A program made the translations under genes and the position numbers. Under the pieces are notes generated by a model. The model worked only from the letters and a program-made list of their open reading frames with translations. It had not been told where the DNA came from and did no database searches. A stretch of 64,000 nt of DNA from an uncultured Verrucomicrobiota bacterium (GTDB lineage: Bacteria; Verrucomicrobiota; Verrucomicrobiia; Limisphaerales; UBA9464): NCBI GenBank assembly GCA_903939515.1, contig CAJAHH010000015.1:71058-135057 (forward strand), read 5' to 3'. Of the stretch, positions 16,115 through 24,651 are shown one piece after another. Each line of letters begins with the position of its first letter. The first letter of the stretch is position 1.

Positions 16115-16738
16115 ATGAGCGACCCCGTATTCTGGACCGTCCACATCACACAAACCCTAGCGAGTATCGCTATGGCCGTCCTGTCCGCCGATTTTGTTGT
16201 CGGTGTGTTCCACTGGATCGAAGACGCCTACCTCCGCGAAGACTGCCCCCTGCTGGGAGAACTCATCGCCCGGCCCAACATCCTCCACCACTACCGACCT
16301 CGCCATTTCCTTAAACACTCCTGGTTGGACTCCTGTTGGGACCTATGGGTCGTGGCGGCAATCTTCGTCCTCAGCGCATGGGCCCTGGACTCCCTCACGC
16401 CGGCCGTCTGGGTCTTCGCCTGCTTGGTCGGCAACGCCAACCAAATCCACAAGTGGGCCCACCGCAGTCGGCGTGAGAATGGCCCTTGGATAAATCTTCT
16501 CCAAGATCTCAGGATTCTCCAAAGTTCTCGACATCATGCGATCCACCACACAGACCCCAAATCGACTCACTACTGTGTGATCACAGAGCACCTCAACCCC
16601 GTCTTGGAACAGTTGCGATTCTGGACCCATCTGGAGTGCTGGCTGTGGAGAACCTTCCGGATTCGACGCCGCAGCGACACCTCGAACCGACGTCATGGAA
16701 TCACACCCGAATGGATTGTGCGCGCTGAACACGCTTAA
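16115..16738 (+). CDS. carF: CarF/PEDS1-family plasmanylethanolamine desaturase
   Basis: The 207-residue membrane protein has the full motif set of the TMEM189/Kua/CarF family: SADFVVGVFHWIEDAY (24-39), ILHHYRPRHFLKHSW (56-70), GNANQIHKWAHRS (106-118), and SRHHAIHHTDPKSTHYCVIT (138-157) followed by EHLNPVLEQLRFW. The histidine clusters HxxxH (112, 116) and HHxxHH (140-145) would hold the di-iron centre. Hydrophobic segments at about 10-32 and 76-106 anchor it. Characterised members (human PEDS1, Myxococcus CarF) use O2 to introduce the vinyl-ether double bond that turns plasmanyl- into plasmenyl-ethanolamine. It is the first gene of a lipid operon, 12 bases before the LplT-like gene. Confidence 0.88.
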   Translation: MSDPVFWTVHITQTLASIAMAVLSADFVVGVFHWIEDAYLREDCPLLGELIARPNILHHYRPRHFLKHSWLDSCWDLWVVAAIFVLSAWALDSLTPAVWVFACLVGNANQIHKWAHRSRRENGPWINLLQDLRILQSSRHHAIHHTDPKSTHYCVITEHLNPVLEQLRFWTHLECWLWRTFRIRRRSDTSNRRHGITPEWIVRAEHA

Positions 16739-16750
16739 ACCCCGCCTCGA

Positions 16751-18031
16751 ATGCCCAACCTCCAGCGCAATTACCCGCTCCTGCTCCTGAGCCAATTCCT
16801 CAGCGCACTGGGCGACAACGCCCTCCTCGCCGTCATCGTGGGACAACTCACCTACCTTCAGCAGGCAGGCATCTTGTCCGAGGCTCAGCTCAGAACTCAC
16901 AACACCGTCTACACCAGCCTCCTGTTCGTTCCCTTCATTTTCTTGGCTCCCGTCGCTGGTTTTCTCAATGACCGACACTCCAAAACCTCCTGGCTGGCCG
17001 GCGGCAACGCCCTGAAAATTTTCGGCACACTCCTGTGCGCATTGAGCCTCCGCTGGGGGCCCATCTGGCAGGGCATCGGATACCTCGTGGTCGGCGTGGG
17101 CGCCTGCGTCTATGGGCCTGCCAAGTATGGCATCCTGCCCGAGATCCTCCCCAGAGAACGCCTCGTCCGAGCCAACGGCATGGTCGAACTCCTCACCCTG
17201 GTGGCCATCCTCGGCGGAGCGATCGCCGGCTCGGTCATGGCCGACCGGTGGAAGGATTCCGTATTGAGCTCCTATGCGGTGCTCGTGGGGATTTATCTCG
17301 GCTCGTTCCTGCTCAATCTCCTCATGGAGCGGACCCCGTCCAACCCCGGCGTCCTCTGGAGCGCCAATACAAACGCCTTCAAAGACCATGCGCGGCAACT
17401 GGCCTTGGCTCCCCGATTGTCCCGAATGCTGGTCGGCACCGGACTCTTCTGGATTTGCGGTGCCGCCATGAAGATCAACTTCCAACCGTGGGGCCTGAGC
17501 GTTCTCCACCTGCCCGACAACACCCAAATCGCCCTGCTCGGATTGTGGCTGAGCGTAGGAGTCATGGTAGGCAGCATCCTGGCCGGCCGATGGTTTCCCG
17601 TCGGGCAATTACAACGCACCCGACTCTTCGGTTTTGCCCTCGCCAGCATGCTGGGGCTCCTGTTTTCCGTTGAGCACCTCAACCTCTGGAAGCACCCCAC
17701 TGTTCAGGCCGGCGCGTTGCATTTGATTCTGCCGGTGGTCGGCCTTCTCATCGGCACCGGCATCGCCGCCGGATTCTTCCTCATCCCACTTAATGCGGCC
17801 CTGCAGGCCGAATCCGACCCGAACAAACTGGGCAAGACCATCGCGGTCCAAAACCTGGTTGATAATCTCGGCATGGTGAGTGCCAGCCTGCTGTGCCTCT
17901 TCAGCGTCCAGGTAGGCATCAGTGCTTCCGGCGTCTTCTTAGTACTGGCCGTGGTGACCGCCGGCATCGTCGCTCTACTGAAGATTCCGGCTTCGACTAT
18001 CCCCACAACCCCTGCAGGAAAAACCCGATGA
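16751..18031 (+). CDS. lplT: LplT-like lysophospholipid transporter (MFS)
   Basis: The 426-residue major-facilitator protein has about 12 membrane segments. FLSALGDNALLAVIVGQLTY (17-36) and the loop GPAKYGILPEILPRERLVRA followed by NGMVE (about 119-143) are hallmark features of LplT and of the Aas-linked MFS group. LplT flips lysophospholipids, mainly lyso-PE, into the inner leaflet. The gene overlaps the aas-like gene by four bases (ATGA), the same pairing as lplT-aas in E. coli, which is strong contextual support. Confidence 0.85.
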   Translation: MPNLQRNYPLLLLSQFLSALGDNALLAVIVGQLTYLQQAGILSEAQLRTHNTVYTSLLFVPFIFLAPVAGFLNDRHSKTSWLAGGNALKIFGTLLCALSLRWGPIWQGIGYLVVGVGACVYGPAKYGILPEILPRERLVRANGMVELLTLVAILGGAIAGSVMADRWKDSVLSSYAVLVGIYLGSFLLNLLMERTPSNPGVLWSANTNAFKDHARQLALAPRLSRMLVGTGLFWICGAAMKINFQPWGLSVLHLPDNTQIALLGLWLSVGVMVGSILAGRWFPVGQLQRTRLFGFALASMLGLLFSVEHLNLWKHPTVQAGALHLILPVVGLLIGTGIAAGFFLIPLNAALQAESDPNKLGKTIAVQNLVDNLGMVSASLLCLFSVQVGISASGVFLVLAVVTAGIVALLKIPASTIPTTPAGKTR

Positions 18032-20238
18032 TCAAGACCCTAATCCATTGGCTCCTGCGCCTGTGTTTCCGTTACCGCGCCTACAATACAGAAGTGCTGT
18101 CCACGCCAGGTCCGGTGCTATTGCTCCCGAACCACGTCTCTTGGCTGGACTGGGCTTTTCTCGGCGTCGTGCTCGATAAGGATTGGAAATTCGTCACCAG
18201 CTCCACCACAGCCAAGACCTCGTGGATCCATAGCCGGATCATGGTCAACCAGCGTACCTTCCCCATCGATCCGGCCTCCCCTTACGGAGCCAAGCGCATG
18301 GCGGAGTACCTCGCTCAAGGCGGCCGACTCGTCTTGTTCCCAGAGGGCCGATTAACGCGAACCGCCCGGATGATGAAGCTCTTCGACGGCACTGGCTTCC
18401 TCATTCACAAAACGAAGGCAAAGGTCATCACCTGTTATTTGCGCAATGCGGTTCGAGTACCTGCGGTGCGGCATACGGGCTGGACCCGCTGGTTTCCTCA
18501 GGTCTCGGCCCACTTCAGCGCGGTACAGAGCGCCCCAGACCTGTCGCACCAAGCCAACTCCGTGGCACGAGCCCGCATCACCCGCTGGCTGCGTGACGCG
18601 ATGGTTCACCAGCAATTTCAGGCCGAAATGGACCTCGGGCCCCAGGATGTCTTGGAAGCCATCGCCGAAACCGCCAAGGCCCTCCCCAGACGGCAAATCC
18701 TCGAAGACATCACCCTCAAGCCACTGACCTATCGCCGGCTCATGGTCGGAGCCGAACTGCTGGCACAGCAGTTCCAGAGTCTGCTTCCGAAAGAAACCCG
18801 CCCTCCCCAGAGCGACCCCACCCGGGTGGGCGTGCTCCTGCCCAACGTCAACGGCATGCCACTGACGCTGCTGGCCTTGTGGTCCACGGGGCATACCCCA
18901 GCGGTTCTCAACTTCTCCACGGGGCCCACCATACTTCTGCAATGCGCCCGACTAGCGGGTATCCGGGACGTCATCACCTCCCGCACCTTTCTCGAGAAGG
19001 CCAAGTTGGACATCGGCCCATTGGAAGCGGCCGGCATTCGCTTCCACCGACTGGAAGACGTCCGCACCCGGATCAGTACCCTAGATAAGTTGCTCGTCCT
19101 CCTGAAGCACAGCATCCGGTGCGGCACAGGCCTTCGTGTGCCGCGCGATGGCTTCGACCCGCTTAAGACTCCGGCCGTGATTCTCTTCACCTCCGGATCA
19201 GAAGGCATTCCCAAGGGTGTGGTGCTCACCCACGCCAATCTTCTGGCCAACATTCGTCAGATGGACGCGTTCCTGGATGTCTCCGATCACGAGCGGTTCT
19301 TCAATGCACTCCCCCTCTTTCACAGCTTCGGCCTGACAGCCTGCACGCTGCTGCCACTGGTTCGAGGTCTCTACACCTTCTTGTATCCGTCTCCCCTGCA
19401 CTACCGAGTCATCCCCGGCGTGGTGTATGACCGCGACTGCACGGTCATGGTGGGCACCAACACCTTCCTCAATGGCTACGCCCGCAAGGCCGCCCCCTAC
19501 GACTTCAACTCGGTGAAGTACCTGGTGGCCGGCGCCGAAAAGGTTCAGGAGGCCACGGCCCAAACCTGGGCACGGAAGTTCGGCATCCGCCTGCTGGAGG
19601 GTTATGGAGCAACGGAGTGCAGCCCGGTGCTCTGTGCCAACAACCGCATTGAGGCCCAGTTTGGCAGTGTCGGGCGCTTCATGCCCGGCATGGAATGGAA
19701 ACTGGAGCCTGTCGACGGCGTCAGCGAAGTCGCCCTCGATGGCCGCATCATCTCCGGACGTCTCTTCGTGCGCGGTCCCAACGTCATGCGCGGCTACCTC
19801 AACTCCGAAGCCGATACCGCCTTCCAGGCCTTGGGCGGCTGGTACGACACCGGAGATCTGGCCCGGATCGATGACGACGGGTTCGTCTTCCTGCTGGGAC
19901 GCATGAAGCGCTTTGCCAAGATTAGTGGCGAAATGGTCAGCCTCACCGCTGTAGAAGACGCCTTAGCAGGTGCCTTCCCCCAGCACGGACTGCGCTGCGA
20001 GATCGCCGTGGTGGCCGTCGCCGACGAGGAGAAAGGCGAAAAACTCATCGCCATTTGCAATGTCCCACGTCTGTCGATGGATGACGTGCGACAGGCCATC
20101 AAGGCCAAAGGTTTAACCAACTTGTGTGTCCCACGCGAAATTCGGTTCGTGAACGAGATCCCCAAGCTGGGCACCGGCAAGATTGATCATCGGGCACTCA
20201 TCGAAATTGTCCGCTCCGAGGCAACCCGCTTGACCTGA
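18028..20238 (+). CDS. aas: Aas-like bifunctional 2-acyl-GPE acyltransferase / acyl-ACP synthetase
   Basis: From the ATG at 18028 the product has 736 residues. The N-terminal PlsC-type acyltransferase domain carries NHVSWLD (His36, Asp41, the HX4D motif) and VLFPEGRLTRT (about 102-112). The C-terminal AMP-forming domain (about 230-730) has LFTSGSEGIPKGVV (about 384-397), EGYGATECSP, WYDTGDLARIDDDGF and a late GTGKIDH with the catalytic Lys. It activates a fatty acid with ATP onto ACP and transfers it to lysophospholipid at the inner membrane. It is coupled to lplT upstream and to the hydrolase downstream (TGATG), making one transcript with carF likely. Confidence 0.9.
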   Translation: MIKTLIHWLLRLCFRYRAYNTEVLSTPGPVLLLPNHVSWLDWAFLGVVLDKDWKFVTSSTTAKTSWIHSRIMVNQRTFPIDPASPYGAKRMAEYLAQGGRLVLFPEGRLTRTARMMKLFDGTGFLIHKTKAKVITCYLRNAVRVPAVRHTGWTRWFPQVSAHFSAVQSAPDLSHQANSVARARITRWLRDAMVHQQFQAEMDLGPQDVLEAIAETAKALPRRQILEDITLKPLTYRRLMVGAELLAQQFQSLLPKETRPPQSDPTRVGVLLPNVNGMPLTLLALWSTGHTPAVLNFSTGPTILLQCARLAGIRDVITSRTFLEKAKLDIGPLEAAGIRFHRLEDVRTRISTLDKLLVLLKHSIRCGTGLRVPRDGFDPLKTPAVILFTSGSEGIPKGVVLTHANLLANIRQMDAFLDVSDHERFFNALPLFHSFGLTACTLLPLVRGLYTFLYPSPLHYRVIPGVVYDRDCTVMVGTNTFLNGYARKAAPYDFNSVKYLVAGAEKVQEATAQTWARKFGIRLLEGYGATECSPVLCANNRIEAQFGSVGRFMPGMEWKLEPVDGVSEVALDGRIISGRLFVRGPNVMRGYLNSEADTAFQALGGWYDTGDLARIDDDGFVFLLGRMKRFAKISGEMVSLTAVEDALAGAFPQHGLRCEIAVVAVADEEKGEKLIAICNVPRLSMDDVRQAIKAKGLTNLCVPREIRFVNEIPKLGTGKIDHRALIEIVRSEATRLT

Positions 20239-20918
20239 TGTCGATGTCTGGCGCCACCCCAACGCTTCAACCCGGCAATCCGCGTACCGAGGCCGTGGTC
20301 CTCCTCCACGGTTGGTACTCGTCACCGATCCCAATGAAGCGGCTAGAATGGGCCCTGCGACGGGAAGGCTACCAGGTCTTCAATCCGGCCTACCCATCCA
20401 TTCGGGTGCCGCTCACGATCTTGGCTTCGGAGTACCTGCCAGACTATTTGCTGCGCACGATTCCGGAGGGCATCCAACGGATTCATTTCGTTACCCACTC
20501 CATGGGCGGACTGCTGCTGCGCGGCAGCTTGGCGGCACACCGCCCTGCCCGTTTGGGACGCGTCGTCTTTTTGGGCACGCCTCACCATGGCAGCGAAGCG
20601 GCAGACTTTTGGTCTAAAAATGCCCTCTGCCGATGGTTAGCCGGACCCAATTTGGCGGCGTTGCAGACCGGGCTTGCAGGCTACTCGGTCAACCTGGGCC
20701 CGGCCGACTATGAAGCCCTCGTCATCGCTGGAGATCGTCCCTTATCGCCCTTCTGGTCTCCATTGCCCGCCCCGCATGACGGCAAGGTGAGCGTCGCCTC
20801 GACCCGACTGGCAGGATCGGCCCGTCACGTCGTCGTGCCTCATACCCACATCGCCCTGCCCATCCGGACCGAGATCATCCGGCAAGTTGTGCAATTCCTG
20901 CGCGGAGACGTTGCCTGA
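20238..20918 (+). CDS. Lipase-like alpha/beta hydrolase
   Basis: The 226-residue protein has an alpha/beta-hydrolase fold: VVLLHGWYSSP near residue 20, the nucleophile elbow THSMGG (about 81-86, Ser at centre), FLGTPHHGSEAADF and a late VVPHTHIAL that can supply the catalytic His. This resembles the lipase/PGAP1-like group acting on acyl esters. There is no signal peptide, so it would act at the inner side of the membrane. The start codon shares one base with the aas stop. In this operon it may deacylate phospholipids or act as a remodelling lipase, which is inference. Confidence 0.82.
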   Translation: MSMSGATPTLQPGNPRTEAVVLLHGWYSSPIPMKRLEWALRREGYQVFNPAYPSIRVPLTILASEYLPDYLLRTIPEGIQRIHFVTHSMGGLLLRGSLAAHRPARLGRVVFLGTPHHGSEAADFWSKNALCRWLAGPNLAALQTGLAGYSVNLGPADYEALVIAGDRPLSPFWSPLPAPHDGKVSVASTRLAGSARHVVVPHTHIALPIRTEIIRQVVQFLRGDVA

Positions 20919-22347: not shown

Positions 22348-22653
22348 GTGCAGTATGTTTGGGATTCAAATCAGAACGATTTCCTGAAGGCGAATCGCGG
22401 GATTTCGTTCGAGGCCGTCATTGTGCACCTTCGCCGCGAAGACATCTGGAAGGTTACAGACCACCCGGATTAAGCCCGGCACCCGGGGCAAAGGATCCTT
22501 TTCGTGATCGTAGACGACTATGTTCACATGGTCCCATTAGAGATCCGAAGAGACACGCTATGGCTTGTGACAATTATCCCGAGCAGAAAAGCAACAAGAC
22601 AATACAGAGAGGAGAACCAAAATGAAACTGAGCAAAGAAGAAAAGGAAATTGA
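22348..22653 (+). pseudogene. BrnT-like toxin interrupted by an in-frame stop
   Basis: From a GTG at 22348 the frame reads QYVWDSNQNDFLKANRGISF, EAVIVHLRREDIWKVTDHPD and then TAA (22471-22473). It continues in the same frame with ARHPGQRILFVIVDDYVHMV and TIIPSRKATRQYREEN to a TGA at 22651. Across the stop the whole reading is collinear with BrnT-type ribonuclease toxins (start WD-N-N---F---GISFEA, end IIPSRKATR-YR). One substitution thus split a complete toxin gene of about 101 codons. It overlaps the intact antitoxin start by 32 bases. The toxin is probably inactive unless the stop is read through. Confidence 0.8.
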
Positions 22654-22897
22654 ATCTTTTTACGAAAGCAATTCCCTCGAACTTCGTAAGCCGGATAAGG
22701 CATTGCTACGCCAGTTGAAGGCGGCAACTGAAAACACCTTCAAGAAGGATCGCCGAATTAATATACGATTGTCTGAGCATGACATGGTCGGCATTCAGAG
22801 GGTCGCTGCAACAAAAGGGATTCCGTATCAGTCGTTGATTTCGGGCCTGATTCATCAGTTTGTGGAGGGTGATCTCATGGAGAAATCAAAAGGCTAA
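22622..22897 (+). CDS. Antitoxin of a BrnT-like pair (ribbon-helix-helix type)
   Basis: The 91-residue protein begins MKLSKEEKEIESFYESNSLE behind a good ribosome site (GAGGAG, seven bases before the ATG). The C-terminal half has FKKDRRINIRLSEHDMVGIQ and AATKGIPYQSLISGLIHQFV, a MetJ/CopG-like ribbon-helix-helix pattern that is standard for antitoxins paired with this toxin type. It should bind its own promoter and the toxin. Base composition is AT-richer than the neighbours, suggesting transfer. Its toxin is broken, so it is now an orphan antitoxin. Confidence 0.82.
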   Translation: MKLSKEEKEIESFYESNSLELRKPDKALLRQLKAATENTFKKDRRINIRLSEHDMVGIQRVAATKGIPYQSLISGLIHQFVEGDLMEKSKG

Positions 22898-23578: not shown

Positions 23579-24070
23579 TCAGAGCGACCGGGAACGGCGG
23601 ATGCGGTCGCGCTGGAGGGCTGCTTCGTACAGGGCGGCATCAGCGCGGAATGTGGTCTGGCGAAGGGCGTCCAGTGCCTCGGCCAGGTTCAGCAGCCGTC
23701 GTTCCGAAGCCTCCTCGAGAATACCTAGCGTACCTCGGATGCGGATTCCCAGGGCAATCGCTGAGCGGCGGCCATCTCGTTCGTCGATCAGAAGCCGTTG
23801 CGCCCTCAGCTCGACCGCCAGGGAGATGGCCTCGGCCTCGCCGTCGTCGAGGAGATCTAGGAACTGGACATGGCCGGGCGTGCGCACTTGAAACCACGGC
23901 GGCGGATTCTGGGCGACGAGCCGGAGTCCGGGCGGCGCATGGGGGTGCATCATTTCGCGTAGGACCGCCGGCGGCACGAGCACCTCGCCATAGAGGGCCG
24001 GCAAAATTTCCAGCTGGCCGATGATGTGCAGGTAATTGAGTGGTCCGGTATCGGCGACCACGATGGTCAT
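23579..24070 (-). CDS. PIN-domain toxin, DUF3368 type
   Basis: The 163-residue protein has the PIN-like fold of DUF3368 toxins. VVADTGPLNYL at the start contains the first acidic metal ligand, DLLDDGEAEAISLAVEL (about 73-89) the middle Asp/Glu cluster, and LIDERDGRRSAIALGI followed by GTLGIL the late conserved DE-R-A block. It probably cleaves RNA. The ATG overlaps the upstream UPF0175 antitoxin by four bases (ATGA). The frame is intact, so this is the one complete toxin-antitoxin pair in the islet. Confidence 0.85.
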   Translation of the reverse strand: MTIVVADTGPLNYLHIIGQLEILPALYGEVLVPPAVLREMMHPHAPPGLRLVAQNPPPWFQVRTPGHVQFLDLLDDGEAEAISLAVELRAQRLLIDERDGRRSAIALGIRIRGTLGILEEASERRLLNLAEALDALRQTTFRADAALYEAALQRDRIRRSRSL

Positions 24071-24312
24071 CGGGAACCGTTCCGTTCCAGTTCGTAGTCA
24101 GCGAGGCTCAACGCAGGAATGGCTTGGGCCTGCTCAAGCAGCGCCTCGGTAGACCAGCGGTCCAGACCCAATACGGAGCCGACCTGCTTCTGGGTCAGGC
24201 TCCCCTGCCGATACCGCACGATGGCATAGGCTTCCAGCAAGTCGCGGGCGAGCGAGTCTTCCGGTGGCAATGCCACCTGAGCGCTCTCAGGGATTTCAAC
24301 CACGACTTTCAT
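24067..24312 (-). CDS. UPF0175-family antitoxin
   Basis: From the ATG at 24312 the product has 81 residues, starting MKVVVEIPESAQVALPPED. The core YRQGSLTQKQVGSVLGLDRW followed by STEALLEQ is the UPF0175 helix-turn-helix region. It regulates and neutralises the DUF3368 toxin encoded next to it. An upstream ATG at 24330 would add six residues; I prefer the internal start because UPF0175 proteins begin at the beta strand. Confidence 0.85.
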   Translation of the reverse strand: MKVVVEIPESAQVALPPEDSLARDLLEAYAIVRYRQGSLTQKQVGSVLGLDRWSTEALLEQAQAIPALSLADYELERNGSR

Positions 24313-24651
24313 CTCTTTGCAGTTTAGCATAGGACCTTAGGTTTCCTCAAGGGGCTTACTTGGGCCGCCTCGTGTACGAATTGCCGCTCAACCCGACAAG
24401 AATGCCGAAAAACCCGCTTGCCTCCTACGGGCTAATCGCCACCGTCTGCGGTGCCGGTCGTCACTTGTGTGGCGGCATTTTCGGCTGAGAAACACAGTTA
24501 AACCAGTCACCTAACCGCTAACCTCCGTTGTCAACCGCAACGTCGGTCACGTTGGGCAATGGAGTCTTCTGAGGGGCAATTTTACCTCGCCCCGCTCAAG
24601 TCTCCTCGCAGATAAACCGCTCGGGCGCTCACGCGTTCGGCTTATACCATT
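24313..24651. other. Intergenic region ahead of rpsA
   Basis: About 340 bases separate the divergent antitoxin and rpsA. GCCGAAAA near 24403 and TTTTCGGC near 24479 can pair over a loop of about 70 bases. I see no gene. The region must hold the rpsA promoter and leader. Confidence 0.5.

Follow-up and report, generated by a model that had tools for sequence, protein, structure and literature searches.

A Lipid_desat-family gene in conserved linkage with lplT and aas in Verrucomicrobiota, and its possible place in phospholipid recycling

The question raised by the locus described here is whether a gene of the CarF/PEDS1 type, placed at the head of an operon for lysophospholipid recycling, serves the formation of plasmalogens or acts on other lipids. 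Reports of CarF/PEDS1 in bacteria are few. The locus is situated in a stretch of 64,000 nucleotides (hereafter the window; positions 71,058 to 135,057 of contig CAJAHH010000015.1) from the genome of an uncultured Verrucomicrobiota bacterium of the family UBA9464 (assembly GCA_903939515.1; 4.7 Mb, 95.9% complete), and consists of four + strand genes which, according to inspection of their open reading frames (ORFs), occupy positions 16115-20918 with a spacing of 12, -4 (ATGA) and -1 (TGATG) bases. The original prediction was that these genes encode a CarF/TMEM189-family desaturase, LplT, Aas and a lipase, which could jointly produce and remodel plasmalogens. In the current work, a conserved association of the desaturase gene with lysophospholipid recycling was found to be well supported at the gene level by sequence comparison, and literature searches found no paper describing either the operon or the clade of its desaturase (here named N-type). 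The plasmalogen interpretation of the operon is considered unlikely.

Conservation of the desaturase-lplT-aas unit

The desaturase is encoded by the only PF10520 gene in the window's genome, and matches Lipid_desat with a score of 130.5 bits (curated cut-off 26.4). The NCBIfam models nearest to the second and third proteins are PRK11195, and PRK06814 (698.6 bits) and PRK08043 (538 bits), respectively, with scores under the strict equivalog cut-offs of these models. The third protein contains the Pfam domains Acyltransferase, AMP-binding and AMP-binding_C together with the motifs HX4D (HVSWLD), FPEG and TSGSEG, and the layout of an LplT-Aas system, being an LplT-type transporter of the major facilitator superfamily (MFS) followed by an Aas with both domains, is present. 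In the fourth protein the serine motif THSMGG is kept, and its family match is that of a generic alpha/beta-hydrolase. Both the tight packing of the four genes and the lplT-aas identity of the middle pair were confirmed, the former by verification of coordinates and spacing, the latter by the three nearest models.

Among 50 genomes of the family, a PF10520 gene was retrieved from 21, being of the window (N-) type in 20 and of a second type in four. The gene lplT directly follows the desaturase gene at 18 of the 20 N-type loci, with gaps of 2-34 bases, and aas follows lplT, either directly or with one gene between, at 15 of the 16 loci long enough to contain it (aas is missing at L035). The desaturase-lplT-aas unit spans three genera, in which the identity of the desaturase ranges from 98% down to 48%. 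Because the glycine-cleavage H and metallo-hydrolase genes located upstream of the window's operon were not found there in other genera, the unit was kept while its surroundings changed, and the desaturase-lplT order is more than chance. Six closely related species, that of the window among them, have the hydrolase gene immediately after aas; it lies ~2.5 kb off in two others, is absent elsewhere and is not a core part of the operon. The synteny with lplT and aas is conserved, and the link to lysophospholipid flipping and reacylation is sound; of the proposed four-gene operon, the first three genes are kept together and the lipase is linked in the closest relatives only. A search of plasmids found no homologue.

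Outside the family, a scan of named genomes returned 80 loci. One of these, in a gammaproteobacterial metagenome-assembled genome (MAG; L099, the same locus as L151), encodes an N-type desaturase that is 45% identical to that of the window and, ~61 bases further along this strand, a fused LplT-Aas (PRK06814, 1184 bits). Since this fusion is only 25% and 34% identical to the window's LplT and Aas, the comparison suggests that the tie between desaturase, LplT and Aas is functional and came about twice.

Relation of the desaturase to PEDS1 and CarF

Membership of the Pfam family that includes CarF/TMEM189, and the full set of histidine clusters first proposed, were borne out by the PF10520 score and by alignments in which all eight catalytic histidines are present (listed in Table 1 with their equivalents in mouse PEDS1). 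Published mutagenesis has identified eight essential histidines common to PEDS1 and FAD4, and D100 of PEDS1 as essential (PMC8960569, PMC9131029); the equivalent D37 is invariant across a 38-sequence alignment. Considering that histidine spacings are equal between PEDS1 and the window protein (25 for H96-H121 and H33-H58; 9 for H122-H131 and H59-H68), two further positions of PEDS1 can be mapped without gaps. These are F118, the replacement of which by Ala leaves 5.9% of activity (PMC8960569), and H131 (His113 of CarF), which is found in PEDS1 and not in plant and alphaproteobacterial homologues, which could not replace CarF (PMC8960569, PMC9131029). The place of F118 is occupied by Asn in the window and in nearly the whole clade, and by Thr in Hyphomonadaceae, while that of H131 holds His in the window protein but H, K, N, Y, L, R, S, Q, G or A across the clade, and is not conserved.

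F118 and H131 occur together in three Myxococcales MAG proteins (L136, L137, L140), which thus carry the PEDS1 signature. In a phylogenetic tree, these proteins and a group of homologues with Arg at the H131 place (Arg-131 type) are together split from all N-type proteins with support of 100/99; the long branch of row L076 is an artefact of a mis-extracted sequence. Scores with the CarF equivalog model NF045946 were 73 bits (window protein), 88 (L099), 177 (Arg-131 type) and 200 (a myxobacterial PEDS1-signature protein), the cut-off of 500 being so strict that even the last of these stays below it. On the basis of these comparisons, the N-type proteins would represent a distinct, uncharacterised third clade of the PEDS1/FAD4 (PF10520) superfamily, FAD4 being placed by description.

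The search for an ether-lipid synthesis gene elsewhere in the window's genome, suggested along with the original prediction, detected no AGPS, ElbD-type FAR reductase or PlsA/Ger. The two FAD-oxidase_C proteins of this genome best match glycolate oxidase and D-lactate dehydrogenase rather than AGPS; matches to PF07993 were weak, their frames encoding short proteins of the short-chain dehydrogenase/reductase (SDR) type, and a search via domain DUF2229 did not find PlsA/Ger. PF07993 and DUF2229 are here assumed to detect ElbD and PlsA/Ger, respectively. A positive control for AGPS was provided by the Myxococcales genomes with the PEDS1 signature, in which AGPS-like genes were found, one of them confirmed against solved AGPS structures. 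With this confirmed myxobacterial AGPS as query, none was found in the 50 family genomes, the best matches being 28% identical paralogues without the N-terminal part. The genome in question thus yielded no gene of an alkyl-ether lipid pathway, an outcome named in advance as speaking against the plasmalogen interpretation.

A true plasmanylethanolamine desaturase, the plasmalogens of which are then remodelled by the operon, would agree with the shared Pfam family, the eight essential histidines, the essential Asp and the His at the H131 place of the window protein itself. We nevertheless consider this very improbable, given the Asn at F118, the variation of H131 within the clade, the separate position in the tree, the CarF score of 73 against 200, the absence of AGPS from its own and 49 related genomes, where myxobacterial PEDS1-signature genomes have one, and the failure to find PlsA/Ger or a FAR-like reductase in the genome. 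The assignment of the first gene as a plasmanylethanolamine desaturase was hence not upheld.

A possible role in ester-lipid recycling

At four family loci (L034, L036, L037, L045), an ORF of ~500 aa is located between lplT and aas. In all three of these four that were scanned it matches CN_hydrolase, and that of L036 (P0005) also matches apolipoprotein N-acyltransferase, with 66 bits and below the cut-off. The window's genome contains a homologue of this Lnt-like gene (contig C31; 54% identical) unlinked to the operon, as well as a canonical Lnt (contig C139; 263 bits). The Lnt of E. coli removes the sn-1 acyl chain from phosphatidylethanolamine (PE), and the resulting lyso-PE is flipped by LplT and re-acylated by Aas, a 2-acyl-glycerophosphoethanolamine acyltransferase (PMC11416262). 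Considering this route and the presence of the Lnt-like gene with lplT-aas, the natural company of the operon is ester-lipid recycling. The lyso-plasmalogen cycle that had been proposed fits poorly with this specificity of the E. coli Aas and with the removal by Lnt of an sn-1 acyl chain, which plasmalogens lack, and the lipase was rejected as the deacylase of such a cycle because it is not kept beside aas.

With somewhat better than even confidence, we regard the N-type protein as a desaturase of ester-linked phospholipids in LplT-Aas (and Lnt-like) recycling, for which substrate, bond position and coupling to recycling are proposed as follows. Lysophospholipid would arise either from the action of envelope phospholipases or from lipoprotein N-acylation, for which relatives encode a divergent Lnt-like enzyme within the operon, and would be flipped inward by LplT and re-acylated by Aas at the cytoplasmic face. 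The desaturase, presumably a membrane di-iron enzyme, would desaturate an ester-linked chain of the lipids returned by LplT and Aas, the new double bond probably being near the head group by analogy with FAD4 and PEDS1. Because the histidines of CarF are cytoplasmic (PMC9131029), where Aas acts, the histidines of the desaturase are expected to face the Aas side of the membrane.

Several observations weigh against this proposal. At two family loci (L046, L049) lplT is not beside the desaturase gene, and the gammaproteobacterial case consists of one 5.5-kb MAG contig, the related G468 being without the linkage. Outside the family, most N-type genes are solitary and many are accompanied by a regulator of their own, from which it follows that the basic reaction does not need LplT or Aas; the operon may then be a mere co-expression of separate membrane-lipid functions. 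That solitary genes of Proteobacteria and of other Verrucomicrobiota come with dedicated regulators would suit an enzyme like FAD4 that desaturates acyl chains of bulk phospholipids in the course of membrane adaptation, with its proximity to lplT-aas reflecting only co-expression with general membrane maintenance, as would the fact that FAD4 shares the Pfam family and works on a phospholipid acyl chain (PMC8960569). This explanation is given real weight but judged unlikely in view of the very tight, lineage-wide coupling to lplT in the family with its gammaproteobacterial recurrence, of the two PF00487 desaturases already in the genome, and of the Asn at F118, which separates the N-type from the Arg-131 form too. 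The presence of the two PF00487 desaturases also led to rejection of the N-type protein as the cell's only desaturase.

It was also considered that the protein is a di-iron enzyme of other chemistry, such as a hydroxylase or a conjugase, with a lipid or another hydrophobic compound as substrate. An AlphaFold2 model of the desaturase reached a predicted local distance difference test (pLDDT) value of 96. A sequence search of the PDB found nothing, and Foldseek with this model found no significant match in the PDB, the only relevant, non-significant one being the Scs7p hydroxylase, which together with a weak FA_hydroxylase match and the changed second-shell residue (N55) is in line with such chemistry. 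The sequence is, however, clearly nearer to Lipid_desat (130 against 20 bits for FA_hydroxylase) and both characterised Lipid_desat members are desaturases, which makes this alternative improbable.

Within the preferred role in ester-lipid recycling, a narrower proposal is offered as a tentative possibility, namely that the N-type proteins form a third functional PEDS1/FAD4-type class, distributed among Verrucomicrobiota, Planctomycetota and Proteobacteria and specific for lysophospholipids or for phospholipids freshly re-acylated in the wake of lipoprotein maturation, within a hitherto undescribed desaturase-LplT-Lnt-Aas pathway. Should this coupling prove genuine, no earlier example of a desaturase linked to the repair of lysophospholipids and to lipoprotein maturation would exist in the literature searched, and a way would be opened to what this widespread PF10520 clade does, our searches having found no function assigned to it so far. 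A homologue with intact histidines is easily mis-annotated as a plasmalogen enzyme, and the Asn/His signature offers a simple means of separating the PF10520 groups; this gene alone is no ground for predicting plasmalogens in these mostly uncultured Verrucomicrobiota.

Surroundings of the locus and comparison with known systems

Just downstream of the operon, a flavin reductase gene (Table 1) is 89-100% identical and operon-near within the genus, and is not near the operon in other genera; its product is possibly a candidate electron donor for the desaturase, or the gene a chance neighbour. A divergent ORF lies upstream, and further downstream a PIN-type pair and a separate antitoxin-like gene are likely toxin-antitoxin modules or remnants.

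Table 1. Features of the operon, of its desaturase (residue equivalents refer to mouse PEDS1) and of its surroundings in the window
Feature	Position	Strand	Basis or remark
Divergent ORF, 115 aa	15694-16041	-	No Pfam match
Lipid_desat (PF10520) desaturase, N-type clade, 207 aa	16115-16738	+	Pfam, AlphaFold2
HWIED, first di-iron motif: H33 (H96), D37 (D100)	16211-16225	+	Alignments; roles from PMC8960569
N55, place of F118	16277-16279	+	Alignment
H58, H59 (H121, H122)	16286-16291	+	Alignments
H68, place of PEDS1-specific H131	16316-16318	+	Alignments
H112, H116 (H187, H191)	16448-16462	+	Alignments
H141, H144, H145 (H215, H218, H219)	16535-16549	+	Alignments
LplT-type lysophospholipid transporter (MFS), 426 aa	16751-18031	+	PRK11195 214.8 bits, MFS_1 68 bits
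Aas, acyltransferase + acyl-ACP synthetase, 736 aa	18028-20238	+	ATGA overlap with lplT; PRK06814, PRK08043
Alpha/beta-hydrolase (esterase/lipase-like), 226 aa	20238-20918	+	TGATG overlap with aas; Abhydrolase_6 28.5 bits
FAD/NAD(P)-binding (flavin) reductase, 239 aa	21088-21807	+
Small CopG/BrnA-like antitoxin	22622-22897	+	By eye
PIN-type toxin (DUF3368-like)	23579-24070	-	By eye
Small UPF0175-like partner	24067-24330	-	By eye

As regards stand-alone N-type genes elsewhere, a conserved upstream HTH_26-type regulator, mostly divergent, was seen in Proteobacteria (L095-L118; 14 loci in all, one Pedobacter-labelled), and a conserved upstream LysR regulator, again mostly divergent, at 15 loci of other Verrucomicrobiota (L075-L098, L124, L131). 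FA_hydroxylase-like genes occur near some N-type genes (L106, L113, L126, L127, L139, L141). The N-type gene is also present in cultured bacteria, among them Roseibacillus persicicus KCTC 12988 (L115) and Parvibium lacunae KMB9 (L106). In four congeners a second PF10520 paralogue (L030-L033; 193 bits), with Phe at the F118 place, was rejected as a canonical CarF because of the Arg at the H131 place; an FA_hydroxylase-like ORF, confirmed as PF04116 for L031, adjoins this gene in opposite orientation in L031-L033.

Compared with CarF/TMEM189 (PEDS1), the window protein is likewise a small PF10520 membrane protein in which all eight of the essential histidines are kept along with the essential Asp, and differs by the Asn in place of F118, by an H131 position unconserved in its separate clade, by a genome in which no known ether-lipid pathway was found, and by its operon with lplT-aas. 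With FAD4, the plastid phosphatidylglycerol desaturase (compared by description), and the Arg-131 homologues it shares PF10520, the histidine set and the lack of a conserved H131, whereas the Arg-131 type (L030-L033) has kept Phe at F118 and branches with the PEDS1-signature proteins and not with the window clade. As in the E. coli lplT-aas pair, which is fed by Lnt-derived lyso-PE and both proteins of which act in sequence (PMC11416262), LplT and Aas are encoded together; in the locus described here, however, a Lipid_desat gene stands in front of the pair, and in relatives an Lnt-like gene is inserted within it.

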